Shown here: piece by piece, positions 2,786 through 59,720 of the stretch | Position numbering within the stretch: the stretch's first letter is position 1 | How the letters are laid out: the number at the start of each line of letters is the position of its first letter | From: Orenia metallireducens | GTDB taxonomy: Bacteria; Bacillota; Halanaerobiia; Halobacteroidales; Halobacteroidaceae | Assembly: GCF_003001995.1 (NCBI RefSeq) | Contig: NZ_PVNB01000023.1 | Coordinates: 1 to 63,060, forward strand | Reading direction: 5' to 3' | Length of the DNA stretch: 63,060 bases | Notes under the pieces: generated by a model | Seen by the model: the letters and a program-made list of their open reading frames with translations, nothing else | What the model was told of the DNA's origin: nothing | The model's database searches: none | Program-made: the position numbers and the translations under genes

Positions 2786-2835
2786 TTGAGTCTGAAATTA
2801 ACATATATATAATTGGTATTAAAGGTTTTGAATTG

Positions 2836-2867
2836 TTGTAGGGAACGGTCGCGACCGTTCCCTACAA
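2836..2867. repeat. 32-bp GC-rich perfect palindrome
   Basis: TTGTAGGGAACGGTCG is followed directly by its exact reverse complement, giving a 32-bp palindrome centred on CGGTCGCGACCG. A sister copy with one mismatch lies at 40347-40374. Both are intergenic and much more GC-rich than their surroundings, which suggests a dispersed REP-like element. Confidence 0.75.
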
Positions 2868-2905
2868 ATTAATGAATGATTAGAGTAATTAAAATTGTCT
2901 GTTTA

Positions 2906-2937
2906 TAAAAATACACCTATATAGGTGTATTTTTTTT
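2906..2937 (+). terminator. Terminator after the PhoH gene
   Basis: AATACACCTATATAGGTGTATT forms a perfect hairpin directly followed by a T8 run. The sigma-H-like promoter of the next operon begins 3 nt beyond. Confidence 0.85.
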
Positions 2938-2939
2938 GC

Positions 2940-2964
2940 AGGAAAAGAATAATAGATATAGAAT
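2940..2964 (+). promoter_or_regulatory. Sigma-H-like promoter of the yggS-sepF operon
   Basis: AGGAAAA (2940-2946) and AGAAT (2960-2964) are separated by 13 nt, as at 439 and 13463. The position between a terminator and the yggS ribosome binding site supports a real promoter; the sigma-H assignment is inferred. Confidence 0.55.
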
Positions 2965-2990
2965 TAATTTAGGGAGGAGGTTTTTTATGT

Positions 2991-3692
2991 ATGGAAGATA
3001 TTAATGATAATTTATTAAAAATAGAAGAAAGAATTAAAGTTGCTGCTAAAAGATCAGGGAGGGACCTATCAGAAATTAAATTATTACCTATTTCTAAGTA
3101 TCACTCCTTAGATAAGATTCAGGTGGTTTTAGATAAAGGATATGTTGAGTTTGGTGAAAGTAGAGTACAAGAGTTAATGGAGAAGGATGAAGAGTTCTCT
3201 TCTGATGTAGAATGGCATATGATCGGCCATTTACAGAGAAATAAGGTGAAGTATTTAGCAAGAATGACTAGATGCAAGTTAATCCATTCAGTTGATAGTT
3301 TAAGATTGGCTAAGGAGATCAATAAAAGAGCTAAGCAAGAAGAGAGGGTAATGGATATATTAATTCAGATCAATACCGCTCAAGATGATAATAAGTTTGG
3401 GATTTATACTAAAGAGGCAATTGAGATGGTCAAAAAGATTGGTAGCTTTAAAAATGTAAAAATTAGGGGTTTAATGACAATTGCACCTTATAGTGATGAC
3501 CCTGAAGAGGTAAGACCAGCTTTTCGTAAGTTAAGGAAGTTAGCTGAGAAGATAGAAGCAGAGGAGATAGAAGGTGTAGAGATGAAAGAATTATCAATGG
3601 GAATGAGTAATGATTTAGAGGTAGCTATTGAAGAAGGTGCTACAATCTTAAGGGTTGGCTCAGCAATCTTTGGAGAAAGGGAGTATAACTAA
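2991..3692 (+). CDS. yggS: YggS/PLPBP pyridoxal-phosphate homeostasis protein
   Basis: A 233-residue single-domain PLP-binding protein of the alanine racemase-like TIM-barrel fold. The PLP lysine lies in LLPISKYHS, and GEsRVQE, WHMIGHLQRNK and SMGMSNDLE..I..G.T.LRVGSAIFG are hallmark motifs. Family members bind PLP without a known catalytic reaction and influence PLP and amino-acid homeostasis. ATG 2991 follows AGGGAGGAGG by 10 nt; another ATG four bases upstream is out of frame. Its stop codon overlaps the sepF start (TAATG), and proC, a link to amino-acid metabolism, is two genes downstream. Confidence 0.93.
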   Translation: MEDINDNLLKIEERIKVAAKRSGRDLSEIKLLPISKYHSLDKIQVVLDKGYVEFGESRVQELMEKDEEFSSDVEWHMIGHLQRNKVKYLARMTRCKLIHSVDSLRLAKEINKRAKQEERVMDILIQINTAQDDNKFGIYTKEAIEMVKKIGSFKNVKIRGLMTIAPYSDDPEEVRPAFRKLRKLAEKIEAEEIEGVEMKELSMGMSNDLEVAIEEGATILRVGSAIFGEREYN

Positions 3693-9724: not shown

Positions 9725-9980
9725 TAAACAGCAAAGATAGAGAAGAGTAAATATAGTGGAAGTTAAAGCGAACTGGGGATGGTGAAAGCCTGGCAACAGA
9801 AGCTATATTGAAGATCACCTCTTAGCTATTTCTCTGAAATTAATAGTAAGAGAAATCGGATGCAGACCGTTATTCTGTTTAAGTGAGTATATCTGTGAGC
9901 TTTCGGCTTACTATATACTAATTAGGGTGGTACCGCGATAATAACCTCGTCCCTTGCTGGGAGGAGATTTTTTTATTTTT
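9725..9980 (+). promoter_or_regulatory. T-box riboswitch, Ile specifier
   Basis: The leader contains the T-box sequence AGGGTGGTACCGCG (about 9925-9937), the stem I element GAAGATCACCTC with AUC as probable specifier codon (9814-9816), and a terminator (about 9945-9973) with a GGGAGGAG arm and a T7 tract. Uncharged tRNA-Ile would stabilise the antiterminator and permit read-through into ileS. Both the T-box and the downstream gene agree on isoleucine. Confidence 0.93.
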
Positions 9981-28014: not shown

Positions 28015-28160
28015 TCACACATCAAGAGTAGTGGAGGGATAGGCCCTATGAAGCTCGGCAACCACCTGTAAAGGAAAGGTGCTAATTCCTACAAGGAAAT
28101 AACCTTGGGAGATGTTCAGATTCTTATTAATCCATCTCTCCTTAGAAGGAGGGTTTTTTT
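28015..28160 (+). promoter_or_regulatory. SAM-I (S-box) riboswitch
   Basis: The leader carries S-box signatures: ATCAAGAGTAGTGGAGGGA at the P1/P2 start, GAAGCTCGGCAACCACC, AAGGTGCTAATTCCTAC, and a P1 closing segment. A terminator (CTCTCCTT/AAGGAGGG, 28135-28152) with T7 follows. Binding of S-adenosylmethionine should stop transcription before metK, matching the downstream gene. Confidence 0.95.
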
Positions 28161-33667: not shown

Positions 33668-33780
33668 AAAGTGACATTTAGGAGGTAGGTGGGTAGAGGT
33701 TAGGAAAATTCAACTACCTAACCATCCAACCTCTAACTATCTAACAAAAAACTGTCGCACTATTCCCATTAAGTTTCATT
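33668..33780. repeat. Dispersed intergenic repeat, copy D
   Basis: Left end AAAAAGTGACATTTAGG, right end AAAACTGTCGCACTATTCCC (33748-33767) with CATTAAG after it. The interior alternates GGAGGTAGGTGGGTAGAGG with CTACCTAACCATCCAACCTC. Confidence 0.65.
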
Positions 33781-37318: not shown

Positions 37319-37460
37319 ATGAGACACTTTGTTTTTTGGTGGTTGGATAGTTAGAGGTGGTTTACACGAAGAGTCATCTTTTTAGACTCGTAGGAGGTAG
37401 TTGGTTAACCTCTACCCTACCCACCTAATATCAAAACTCTCTTAATATCCACATCAGCCC
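37319..37460. repeat. Dispersed intergenic repeat, copy E (degenerate ends)
   Basis: Left end GAGACACTTTG resembles the conserved GCGACACTTT end; the right end is degraded. The interior (GGTGGTTGGATAG, CCTCTACCCTACCCACC) is like copies C and D. It holds ACGAAGAGTC...GACTCGTAGG (37366-37394), a relative of the hairpin in the tandem array at 59.1 kb. Confidence 0.5.
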
Positions 37461-40307: not shown

Positions 40308-40440
40308 TTATGACATTTTTATTATTTTATAAATGTTAATCTTTTTGTAGGGTCCGGTCGCGACCAGACCCTACTTTAAAACCTTTTAATTCTTCGTTAT
40401 TTATTTGAAAAAGTGTCGCAATATACCCATTAAGCGATAC
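40308..40440. repeat. Dispersed intergenic repeat, copy F, with GC-rich palindrome
   Basis: Left end ATTATGACATTTTT, right end AAAAAGTGTCGCAATATACC (40409-40428) plus CATTAAG. The interior contains GTAGGGTCCGGTCG-CGACCAGACCCTAC (40347-40374), a near copy of the palindrome at 2836. One element therefore carries a second repeat type inside it. Confidence 0.65.
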
Positions 40441-44719: not shown

Positions 44720-46393
44720 ATGAATACCTTTATTAAAGATAAGATGTCAATATCGGCTGATTTCTTAAATAAGATTATGAGGATAAGTAGTATTAAGAAT
44801 AAATTTAGTAATTTGAAATTTAGATATAAATTATTAGTAGGATTTTCAGCAGTAATTTTAGTTTTTTTATTAGGTTCAATGGCTAATTTATTATTCTTAA
44901 GTAGTATTAGCAATGATACTACAATAGTGAAGGAATCTGGAGATAATATGTATTATGTTTTAAAGTTAGCTACATTGATTAGGGCTAAATATATAGATGC
45001 TGTTGATTTATCTAATAATGATGATAGAGCAATCCGTCATTTTGAAAAACATGAAAGAGAGTTCCAAAAGATAGCTGATAAATTAACTGAAATCATCATT
45101 GATAAGAGAGCAAAAATGCTCTTGATAGAATTAGTTAAGCAGAATAATGAGTTTAATAGAATCTTTACTGAGGAATTAATTCCAGTTTATAATATTAAAA
45201 ATGGGAGGGATGTTCCAGAATATAGGGGGATTGTCAATTTTGAAGTACCAATGATTGCCATAGTTAATACTAGAGATGATTTAATTTATGCTAGTAATGT
45301 ATTGAATGAAATTTTTACTGACAGACGGATGGAGGCAGTAAAAGATTTAGGAGAGCATATAAAGTCTAGTTATACTTCTTCAATAATATCAGTTATTTTT
45401 ACTATTATAATTTCTTTAATAATTATTAGACTACTAGAGAATAATTTAGTTAATACCTTGCAGAAGTTAGTAGATTATAGTAAAGAGCTAGCAAGTGGTA
45501 ATTTAAAGGTTAAAAAGTTAAAGATCAATACAAATGATCAGATTGAAGAGTTGGCAAGAGGTTTTAATACCATGGTAGATAATTTATATAATTTACTTAC
45601 TAATGTTTCCAATACAAGTAATCAAGTAGCAGGATTTAGTCAAGAGTTATCCTCTTTATCATTAGAAGCTGATTCTACTATTCATTCAGCTTCATCGATA
45701 ATTAATGATATGTCTGAAGGGGTTAAGCAGGTAGATTATAGTAGCCATGAAGTTATGGAGTTATCTTATAATGTAGTAGATATAACAGGTGAAGGAAATA
45801 ACAAGATTAAAGCTTCAATTGAGCAAATTATAAAAATTCAAGAGACGGTAGATAATGTTGCAGATGTAATAGACCGCTTTAATCAAAGATCTGATGAGAT
45901 TGGTAAGATTACTGATTTGATCGATAGAATTGCTGATCAAACCAACCTCTTAGCTTTAAATGCGTCAATAGAAGCAGCAAGAGCTGGTGAGGCTGGTAAA
46001 GGTTTTGCTGTTGTGGCTGATGAGATTAGAAATTTATCAAAAGAGACCTCTGAGGCTACTAAGAATATTGATGGTTTAATTAGAGAGATTCAAAATCAGT
46101 CAAAAGAGGCAATTCAAGCTATTCAGGCAGGAAAAGATGAGAGTCAGATGGGAGAGAAGGTTATTAAAGAGGCAGGGGAATCTTTTGAAGGTGTAAATGC
46201 TGCTATTACAGATACAGTAGCCAATATTGAAGAGACCACAGCCTCTACTGAACAGTTAGCAGCAGGAAGCCAAGAGGTTTTAAAGGTAACAGAGGAGGTA
46301 AAGGCTATCTCTAAAGAGGTTACTATGGAAGCTGAGAAGTTATCAATTATGGCAGATAATTTAAATGGATTATTGCACAATTTTAATTTATAA
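44720..46393 (+). CDS. Methyl-accepting chemotaxis protein 2, inside the pho-pst region
   Basis: A 557-residue chemoreceptor. Membrane segments at about 40-65 and 215-240 flank a helical extracytoplasmic domain of about 150 residues, similar in size to four-helix-bundle (4HB) sensors. HAMP and signalling coiled coil follow, with the standard tip [21 protein letters not shown]. It has a 39-residue cytoplasmic N-terminal extension. Its place between two pstS genes suggests phosphate taxis. However, no Pho box is visible before it and terminators separate it from both neighbours, so the link is positional only. GGGGGT lies 9 nt before the ATG. Confidence 0.92.
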
Positions 46394-55850: not shown

Positions 55851-55960
55851 AAGTGCGATACTTTGTTTATTAGGTAGATAGGTGGGTAGGAACTGCCTAA
55901 CTACCTAAATTTTTAACTCCTAACCGCCAAAGAAAAAGTGTCGCAATATACTCATTAACC
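55851..55960. repeat. Dispersed intergenic repeat, copy G
   Basis: Left end AAGTGCGATACTTTG, right end AAAAAGTGTCGCAATATACT (55934-55953) plus CATTAA. The interior is GTAGATAGGTGGGTAGG/CTGCCTAACTACC. The best preserved copy together with B. Confidence 0.7.
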
Positions 55961-56196
55961 GCCAGTAGTTAAATAAAAGCTAAATTTTGACTTTTAATCT
56001 AAAGGGGATATTTTAAATTTAATCTGCTGAAAGAGAATAATTATTTCAATAATAGGTATTATAAGAAAAGGATTTATAATTAAATCTTCAATCCCGTTTT
56101 ACATACTGTAAAAGCTAAAGAGAATTTAGTGTATAGTTCAGTTCTCTAAGTGCTTTTTCCATAATAAGATAAGAGAGAAATAAAAAAAACAAAAAA

Positions 56197-57094: not shown

Positions 57095-57193
57095 GGATTG
57101 TTTTTGAGATTATTTATTCTAATCTATTATATCATTTGAGCTCAGAAAATAAAAGTGAATTTGAAGGTTGTTACATTAAGGAGGCTAATTAAG

Positions 57194-59101
57194 ATGTTAC
57201 CAAGATGGGATGAACAGAGACAGAAAGTATTTGAGGATAGGTATGCTTTAAAAGATGAAAGTGGGGCTTTGATAGAAGCTAGTCCACAAGATATGTGGAG
57301 AAGAATAGCTAGAGTATTAGCAGAAGGTGATGATAAATTACATAATGAGTATTATCATGCTCTAGAGGATTTTAAATTTGTTCCAGCAGGAAGGCAATTA
57401 GCAGGAATAGGGAACCAAGGTGATGTAACTTTTTATAATTGTTATGTGATCCCTTTTCATAATAGAAAGAATCCAGAGGAAGGTTTAGATAGTAGAGGAG
57501 CAATTATGGATACTATCTCTTCTTGTGTAGAGATCTCAGCACGTGGAGGTGGAGTAGGCTTAAACTGGTCGGTATTACGACCTCGTGACTCTTATGTTGC
57601 AGGAGTTAATGGAAAATCAAGTGGTACTGTAAGTTGGATGAAGGCTATGAATGGTGTGATTTTACAGGTGATTCAAGGAGGCAGTCGCCGCGGAGCTCAG
57701 ATGTATTTATTAGAGGATTGGCATCCCGATGTATTGGAGTTTATCACTGTTAAAGAAAACTTAGAAGAGTTAAATGGAGCTAATCTTTCAGTAGGAATCT
57801 CTGATGAGTTTATGGAGGCTGTTAAGCAGGATGAAGAGTGGGTCTTGAAGTTCCCTGATACAAGCTATCCTAAGTATAATCAAGAATGGGAAGGGGATAT
57901 CAGAGATTGGGAGAGTAAAGGATATCCAGTAAAGGAGTATAAGAGGATTAAAGCTAGAGAGATGTGGGATTTAATCTGCAAATCAGCTTTAAATACTGCT
58001 GAACCAGGGGTTATCTTCTTAGAAAGATATAATAAATGGTCTAATACCAGAGGTGTAGAGAGAATTATCGGTACCAATCCTTGTGGTGAACAGGGGCTTG
58101 GTGGCTGGAGTGTATGTAACTTAGGTTCTATTAATCTAATTCACTTTATAGATGAAGCTGGAGAGGTAAAGTGGGATGAATTAAGAAGTACTGTCAGAAC
58201 AGGAGTGAAGTTCTTAGACCAGATTATTGATGAGAATGATTATATCTATCCTGAAATTGAAGAGAAGCAGAGCAAGATTAGAAGAATTGGGTTAGGTACT
58301 ATGGGATTGGCTGATGCGATGCTATTGGCTGGGATTAGATATGGTTCTAAAGAGTCCTTAGAGTTTATAGATAAGGTATACTCCTTTATCAGAGATAATG
58401 CTTATGAGATGAGTGCAGAGTTGGCAAAAGAGAAGGGAGCTGCACCTGGCTTTGACAAAGATCTATATCTAGATACTTACTTCATTAAGCAATTACCTGT
58501 TCAGATAAGAGAGAAGATTGCTGAGTATGGAATTAGGAATCTATCAATCTTAACCCAAGCTCCAACAGGAACAACAGGGATGTTGGCAGGAGTGTCATCA
58601 GGGATAGAGCCTAATTTCAATTGGGAATATTATAGACAGGATAATCTGGGAAGAAGGAAAGTCTATCATTGGCTAGCACAAGAGTATAGAAATGAAGGTA
58701 AAGAGCTTCCTGGTTATTTTGTGACTGCACCTGAGCTGACACCTGTAGAGCATATCAAGGTACAAGCTAGAATCCAGAACTATCTTGACTCTAGTATCAG
58801 TAAGACCGTTAATGCTCCCAAAAACCATACCATCGAAGAGGTTAAGACCTTGTACATGCAAGGCTATGATCTTGGTTGTAAAGGGACTACTTATTATAGA
58901 GATGGTTCTAGAAGTGGTGTCTTGGTCAATGAAGAGGAAGAAACAGAAGTAAAGAATGAAAAGGTAGTCGAGATGAAACATAAAGAAGAGCCAGATGAAA
59001 AGGATGGTTTTGCTAAATGTCCAAGCTGTGGAGAGTATTCTATGGGGATGCAAGAAGGATGTAACTTCTGCTTGAGCTGTGGACATTCAAAGTGTAGTTA
59101 A
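57194..59101 (+). CDS. nrdJ: Class II (B12-dependent) ribonucleoside-diphosphate reductase
   Basis: A 635-residue reductase forming deoxyribonucleotides with an adenosylcobalamin-generated radical. The active-site set is present: first redox cysteine in FYNCYVIP, SSCVEISARGGGVGLNWS, NPCGEQ with catalytic cysteine and glutamate, and QAPTGTTGMLAGVSSGIEPNF. The C-terminus holds CPSCGEY...CNFCLSCGHSKC, a zinc-ribbon-like tail probably also used for reduction. No small-subunit gene is needed or present. ATG 57194 follows AAGGAGG; the upstream in-frame start lacks a site. Controlled by NrdR boxes. Confidence 0.95.
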   Translation: MLPRWDEQRQKVFEDRYALKDESGALIEASPQDMWRRIARVLAEGDDKLHNEYYHALEDFKFVPAGRQLAGIGNQGDVTFYNCYVIPFHNRKNPEEGLDSRGAIMDTISSCVEISARGGGVGLNWSVLRPRDSYVAGVNGKSSGTVSWMKAMNGVILQVIQGGSRRGAQMYLLEDWHPDVLEFITVKENLEELNGANLSVGISDEFMEAVKQDEEWVLKFPDTSYPKYNQEWEGDIRDWESKGYPVKEYKRIKAREMWDLICKSALNTAEPGVIFLERYNKWSNTRGVERIIGTNPCGEQGLGGWSVCNLGSINLIHFIDEAGEVKWDELRSTVRTGVKFLDQIIDENDYIYPEIEEKQSKIRRIGLGTMGLADAMLLAGIRYGSKESLEFIDKVYSFIRDNAYEMSAELAKEKGAAPGFDKDLYLDTYFIKQLPVQIREKIAEYGIRNLSILTQAPTGTTGMLAGVSSGIEPNFNWEYYRQDNLGRRKVYHWLAQEYRNEGKELPGYFVTAPELTPVEHIKVQARIQNYLDSSISKTVNAPKNHTIEEVKTLYMQGYDLGCKGTTYYRDGSRSGVLVNEEEETEVKNEKVVEMKHKEEPDEKDGFAKCPSCGEYSMGMQEGCNFCLSCGHSKCS

Positions 59102-59645
59102 GTGGAAAAATTCGTTCGGGGATTTTTCCCTTACGAAGAGTTCGAAAGAACTCGTAGGGAGTAAACTTAGAGCAAGCACAAAATCTAGTTTATATGCTAA
59201 GATATAAAAGTAAGTCCGAATTAGAGTGGAAAAATTCGTTCGGGGATTTTTCCCTTACGAAGAGTTCGAAAGAACTCGTAGGGAGTAAACTTAGAGCAAG
59301 CACAAAATCTAGTTTATATGCCAAGATACAAAAGTAAGTCCGAATTAGAGCAGAAAAATTCTGTCGGGAATTTTTCCATTACGAAGAGTTCGAAAGAACT
59401 CGCAGGGAGTAAACTTAGAGCAAGCACAAAATCTAGTTTATATACCAAGATACAAAAGTAAGTCCGAATTAGAGCAGAAAAATTCTGTCGGGAATTTTTC
59501 CATTACGAAGAGTTCGAAAGAACTCGCAGGGAGTAAACTTCAAGCAAGCACAGAATTTAGTTTATAGCTTGGATTATAAAAAAGTAAGAGTCAATAAAGT
59601 AGAGAAATTGAACCAGGAATTTTCTATTAGGTTGAATTAAAAAAC
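59101..59645 (+). repeat. Tandem array of 124-bp units
   Basis: Units begin at 59101, 59225, 59349 and 59473, each exactly 124 bp apart; a fifth, decayed unit runs to about 59645. Units 1 and 2 are nearly identical, as are 3 and 4, and the pairs differ in the first hairpin (GGAAAAATTCGTTCGGGG against AGAAAAATTCTGTCGGGA). Every unit can form a hairpin with GAAAAATT/ATTTTTC-type arms and a second GAGTTC-GAAA-GAACTC hairpin with a GNRA-like loop. There are no spacers and no open frame. It starts right after the nrdJ stop and fills the gap. Confidence 0.9.
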
Positions 59646-59658
59646 TTAGGGATAGAGA

Positions 59659-59698
59659 TAAAATAAGCTATCATTGATATCAATGATAGCTTATTTTA
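59659..59698. terminator. Palindromic terminator after the tandem array
   Basis: TAAAATAAGCTATCATTGAT is followed by its exact reverse complement. It can end transcription from both directions. Confidence 0.85.
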
Positions 59699-59720
59699 TG
59701 ACAAGTAAGATTAATATAGC

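Follow-up and report, generated by a model that had tools for sequence, protein, structure and literature searches.

Two adjacent small hairpins act as a mobile unit in the mitochondrial double-hairpin elements and GC clusters. In bacteria, the REPs carry GT(A/G)G as the 5' head of the palindrome, at least in those listed in PMC2817692, and the hallmark of RAYT-linked REPs is a RAYT gene that lies between two copies of the repeat in inverted orientation. The size, abundance, position and intragenic cases of REPs are described in PMC3733652. The Rickettsia palindromic elements (RPE), as presented in PMC10969869, measure about 150 bp and are found as in-frame inserts in protein genes.

The array described here lies behind nrdJ in Orenia metallireducens, within a window (the whole stretch of DNA analysed) of 63,060 nucleotides. 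With a probability of roughly 0.75, we regard it as a small palindromic mobile element, non-autonomous and largely restricted to one family of Halanaerobiales, that has been amplified locally in tandem. That element, hp2, is ordinary as a REP-like mobile palindrome and unusual in its tag, its size, its chemoreceptor hot spot and its regular arrays. G000 denotes O. metallireducens itself, G001 and G002 belong to the same genus, G000-G007 make up the family and G008-G012 its sister family.

The array behind nrdJ

The host gene, whose name was taken from a preliminary description of this DNA, and the parts of the array are as follows.

57155..59101, + strand: host gene, nrdJ-type ribonucleotide reductase, 648 aa (PF02867 and PF00317); its stop codon borders the array
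59102..59225, + strand: unit 1 (hpA 59104-59129, hp2 59133-59158, tail S 59159-59225)
59226..59349, + strand: unit 2 (hpA 59228-59253, hp2 59257-59282, tail S to 59349)
59350..59473, + strand: unit 3 (hpA 59352-59377, hp2 59381-59406, tail S to 59473)
59474..59597, + strand: unit 4 (hpA 59476-59501, hp2 59505-59530, diverged tail)
about 59598..59632, + strand: decayed hpA of a fifth unit, read by eye
59658..59702, + strand: terminator-like perfect palindrome, end of the presumed nrdJ 3' UTR, read by eye

TRF placed the array at 59105-59566 with a period of 124, 3.7 copies and a score of 791, far above all other repeats in the window. Cutting from 59102 in 124-bp steps gives the four exact units previously claimed, together with the decayed fifth, and the array does begin right behind the nrdJ stop codon. 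The units had been described as an identical pair followed by another identical pair. This holds for the 59-nt hairpin parts, where unit 1 equals unit 2 and unit 3 equals unit 4 (the pairs differ at 7 positions), but not for the tails, which differ by 1-3 bases among units 1-3 and by 25-27 in unit 4. The duplication of a two-unit block proposed at that stage is therefore only partly right, because hairpins and tails differ in history.

Folding of one unit (in the register of unit 3) returned the two hairpins expected, at -25.1 kcal/mol (z -2.76; 4 of 200 shuffles were equally stable), and GAAA lies in the loop of hp2 in all four units. By eye the tail might hold a third hairpin, which is not counted. 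The terminator scan gave no canonical terminator inside the array, and the palindrome at 59658..59702 is absent from its output; analogous palindromes also lie 3' of nrdJ in G001 and G002. Within the array no Rfam family reached its curated threshold. Elsewhere the window contains a T-box leader (9725-9957) and a SAM riboswitch (28016-28118).

Orthologues of nrdJ are present in G001 (93% identity) and G002 (84%); a scan of named genomes with NrdJ gave no relative. The comparison of copy number suggested in the preliminary description gave four units and a remnant here, two and a remnant in G001, and none in G002, where the terminator-like palindrome follows the stop codon immediately. By eye, copy number also differs at three more loci common to G000 and G001.

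Structure of the repeat

The consensus of 19 aligned hairpins (alignment A1) is ACGRAGRGTY..RACYCGTAGG. Its ends are conserved, the termini being ACGRAG and GTAGG, and GTAGG occurs only at the 3' foot. hp2 is a hairpin of 25-26 nt with a three-base bulge (AC-GAA-GAGTT..AACTC-GT-AGG), preceded by a 5' leader of about 8-10 nt, so that leader and hp2 together measure 36-39 bp. Behind genes it is often paired with hpA, which has a 10 bp stem and a six-base loop, and with a tail of about 65 nt, which brings the unit to about 124 bp; three bases separate hpA from hp2 (33 copies, four genomes).

In a second alignment (A2; 33 hand-chosen copies, mostly found by regular expression), two-sided changes occur in 9 of the 18 pairs of hpA and hp2, in both stems, and 92.7% of the cells form pairs, against at most 64.5% in slid versions; none of 500 shuffles reached the covariation score. 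In 21 of the 33 copies the lowest hp2 pair (columns 31-53) is disrupted, ie the foot of hp2 is not conserved. Covariation in both stems, with the differences in copy number between species, backs the earlier suggestion of a repeated structured element, with duplication, in the presumed 3' UTR. A part in protein binding or 3' stability, also raised there, is conceivable.

Distribution

With one array unit as query, 13 places were found in the own genome, 9 of them outside the array. A related hairpin had been noticed in a repeat named copy E, which shares hp2 with the array and gave 36 matches; the following copy in the window bears this out.

37354..37398, + strand: further hp2 copy, inside a MITE-like repeat (copy E), 49.0 bits with covariance model R1, which was built with this copy

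R1, made from the 19-hairpin alignment, gave 116 matches in the own genome at E<=0.1. At E<=0.01 it gave 113, 94, 60, 27, 43, 4, 90 and 138 in G000 to G007, so that the own genome has at least 113 copies, and 0, 1, 0, 1 and 2 in G008 to G012. There were none in 18 other genomes of the class. In a survey of the phylum with stricter filters (an even draw of 398 genomes, two family members included), 4 genomes matched, all from the order. The exact hp2 pattern, searched in a collection of 84,980 species from which records near the window may be excluded, was found only in Halonatronum saccharophilum, in 3 stretches. A composite model of hpA and hp2 (R2) gave 26 matches in G000, 20 in G001, 14 in G002, 41 in G006, 57 in G007 and 1 in G005; G003, G004 and all five genomes of the sister family lacked matches. 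The plasmid and phage collections gave no match; three viral contigs (L256, L257 and L258) hold matches to the exact pattern, some of which may be due to chance. The family is thus nearly absent outside one bacterial family, which we infer to be the Halobacteroidaceae.

A view of the element as peculiar to nrdJ is not supported, since copies also lie behind many unrelated genes, in MITE-like and IS elements, and inserted within genes, and a private nrdJ RNA is rejected because the element occurs at so many unrelated loci. MITE-like repeat ends (..GTGTCGCAATATACCCATTAA) lie at 163-192, 33746-33775, 40407-40436 and 55932-55961 of the window, and the variable interiors of such repeats often carry hp2.

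Insertion into genes

The tnpB gene of G002 contains a clean in-frame insert of 36 bp, GGTTCTACC-hp2, with a duplication of 0-1 bp, and the site is empty in G007, G008 and G010. In G004 an hp2 lies near this position in the opposite orientation, with a stop codon in the match. Elsewhere one hp2 (39 bp; compare L074) is nested in the loop of another. Both the tnpB insert and those of four receptors stand after ..GCA|, which is not so for the nested copy. The possibility that hp2 is the end of an IS605 element was rejected, as an IS copy without hp2 exists (L117) and in tnpB hp2 is an insert.

Five chemoreceptors from three genera carry full or decayed in-frame inserts at one codon of the tip. 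One receptor here and two in G006 carry 12 residues between EAARA and GE; a G003 receptor has a decayed insert of 11 residues, its paralogue L264 being empty; and a G002 receptor retains the remnant GTRR, with empty orthologues in G001 and in this window.

44720..46393, + strand: chemoreceptor gene with an empty site at 45985|45986; the G002 orthologue carries an hp2 remnant

The three full receptor inserts are read in one frame (T-E-G/S-S..T-R-R), and the tnpB insert in the same frame (T-K-S-S..T-R-R). Insertion into receptors looks recurrent because a tree with 31 receptors requires 5 changes to account for the five inserts; some of its branches are long, and the 31 receptors are a biased sample, mostly best matches to an inserted one. 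Gene conversion among receptors is the alternative to repeated insertion. No empty orthologue was found for the inserted chemoreceptor of the own genome (best identity 32%), and that case therefore rests on paralogues. In L226 (G005) an hp2 copy breaks, out of frame, what reads by eye as a YD-repeat/Rhs-like gene. Judged from such filled and empty sites, the mobility of hp2 is well supported.

Tandem arrays

At least 22 arrays were inspected in five genomes, counted from the matches listed, and 17 of the 22 show a period within 117-137 bp. The number of independent events is smaller than 22, because G000 and G001 have some orthologous arrays in common, as do G001 and G002. The periods (bp) are as follows.

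G000: 124, 125, 122, 72
G001: 124, 122, 122, 126, 145
G002: 134, 77
G006: 127, 133, 124, 203, 109
G007: 126, 126, 130-137, 124, 124, 117

Left out of the count were own same-strand pairs at 194, 197, 201 and 284 bp, each taken as two hairpins of one MITE-like repeat, a pair at 49 bp (C18), and a pair at 117 bp in C5, where the two hairpins differ and belong to one MITE-like repeat. By eye, the units of L247 (G002:C7:106841-107304) and L250 (G001:C8) seem to contain a copy of the RBS and first codons of the next gene, presumably feoB-like. In G004 a tandem hp2 repeat behind tnpB (L119, about 2824-3100) adjoins a stretch of N, where the array may have left a gap in the assembly.

Two arrays of G001 have tails related to tail S of nrdJ: 7 and 0 of 1000 shuffles scored as high for C8, and 12 and 1 of 1000 for L161. 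The local alignment of tail S with arrays C13 and C9 was not significant. Tail S as a duplicated 3' end of nrdJ was rejected, the local alignment lying within the shuffles (190 and 317 of 1000 for this genome, 33 and 267 of 1000 for G001); by this measure the nrdJ array holds no gene-end copy. Direct duplications of gene 3' ends starting right after GTAGG were found in three cases.

Own C8:114887: period 111; a decayed form also in G001
tnpA in G002 and G004: period about 110; the two copies have diverged, and 0 and 11 of 1000 shuffles reached their alignment score
G006 gene ending EELQFELAAQIRDEIDELREKL, which we take to be UvrB-like: period 109

Because these three begin right after GTAGG, they suggest that the end of the hairpin may set the boundary for copying of upstream DNA.

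Origin of the array

In the explanation that we favour, the mobile core is hp2 with its leader. It inserts as a short, precisely bounded block, presumably by single-strand transposition of the IS200/IS605 kind catalysed by some enzyme. The number of units in tandem then rises or falls, for which slippage or unequal exchange across direct repeats would be the simplest route. At nrdJ the amplification would have taken place behind the stop codon, and the array would therefore be transcribed as 3' UTR without a job specific to nrdJ. It would be close to neutral, and its function at nrdJ is most likely none.

A bolder reading, offered tentatively, is that hp2 represents a class of mobile hairpin not described before, minimal in size (36 bp) and spread in one halophile family. 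It would move without a RAYT, prefer sites like ..GCA|G, and repeatedly insert in frame into chemoreceptors at their most conserved turn, being harmless enough there. It would seed arrays with a period near 124 bp by copying the DNA in front (in fresh cases a gene 3' end), with the junction fixed at the GTAGG end.

Selection for a function could also account for the regular period of the arrays and for the excess of copies on the 3' side of genes. The double hairpin would then be a conserved 3'-UTR RNA module that stabilises, ends or processes mRNAs, with arrays selected for dosage. The stems covary, and the array sits between a stop codon and a terminator-like palindrome. Among 89 of the 116 own matches, set against stops from a simple ORF caller, hp2 lies within 60 nt behind a same-strand stop in 14 cases against 2 in the mirror position, and the first unit begins within 20 nt of the upstream stop in 9 of 15 array rows. 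However, the host genes are unrelated, many copies lie in MITE-like repeats, IS elements, other copies and coding sequence, G002 has no array behind nrdJ, and the array contains neither an Rfam family nor a canonical terminator. We consider such a module unlikely.

That hp2 is an ordinary RAYT-mobilised REP/BIME whose cognate RAYT has been lost from this genome we hold to be quite improbable. REP-likeness in the broad sense is plain: hp2 is a palindrome of 20-40 bp with about 100 copies per genome, mainly extragenic, mostly behind genes and sometimes intragenic, as in PMC3733652, and its clusters are reiterated in tandem with flanking DNA. Head-to-tail arrays are common for hp2, whereas head-tail dimers of REPs are described as rare. 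The GT(A/G)G head, 5' in the REPs of PMC2817692, is lacking in hp2, where GTAGG is 3' only and the 5' arm has a three-base bulge; the terminal CGTC tag and A/T stem start of CGTC REPs and RPE-type repeats are likewise not in the consensus.

Genes that we call RAYT-like, from the motifs of that family, are present in G002, G006 and G007; this genome has a 34-aa fragment. At the two loci read (L215 and L216) the gene does not lie between inverted hp2 copies, the sole match being one of 20 bits, and RAYT as the hp2 enzyme is not supported. Y1 transposase genes are present in the family, the own genome having only a broken copy. No transposase tied to hp2 was found, the Y1 and RAYT-like genes here being remnants. 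A second palindrome of the classic GTAG-headed form, GTAGGG..GGTCGCGACC..CCCTAC, occurs at 2838-2868 and 40344-40374 of the window, and its existence argues against hp2 as the REP. The RAYT-like gene L215 of G002 contains a similar palindrome.

An assembly artefact or chance satellite is scarcely credible, for although the assembly is in 95 contigs, the units show fixed differences, the family spans genera, and the array recurs, with two units, in G001 of the same genus.

Significance

By their descriptions, several known elements stand close to hp2. It shares with RPE (PMC10969869) palindromic in-frame inserts in protein genes and a recurring peptide, and unlike RPE it is 36 bp long, resides in free-living halophiles and has one recurrent chemoreceptor site. 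With the mitochondrial elements it has in common the two small hairpins side by side that act as a mobile unit, and it differs from them in its bacterial host. Titles and the openings of abstracts disclosed no paper on such repeats in Halanaerobiales.

hp2 adds to the Halanaerobiales a palindromic mobile family without either tag published for REPs. The pairs of filled and empty sites in conserved proteins make the tolerance of a 12-residue insert in the chemoreceptor tip directly testable, and the family shows, in bacteria, the growth of arrays and the duplication of gene ends coinciding with a hairpin boundary at several loci.
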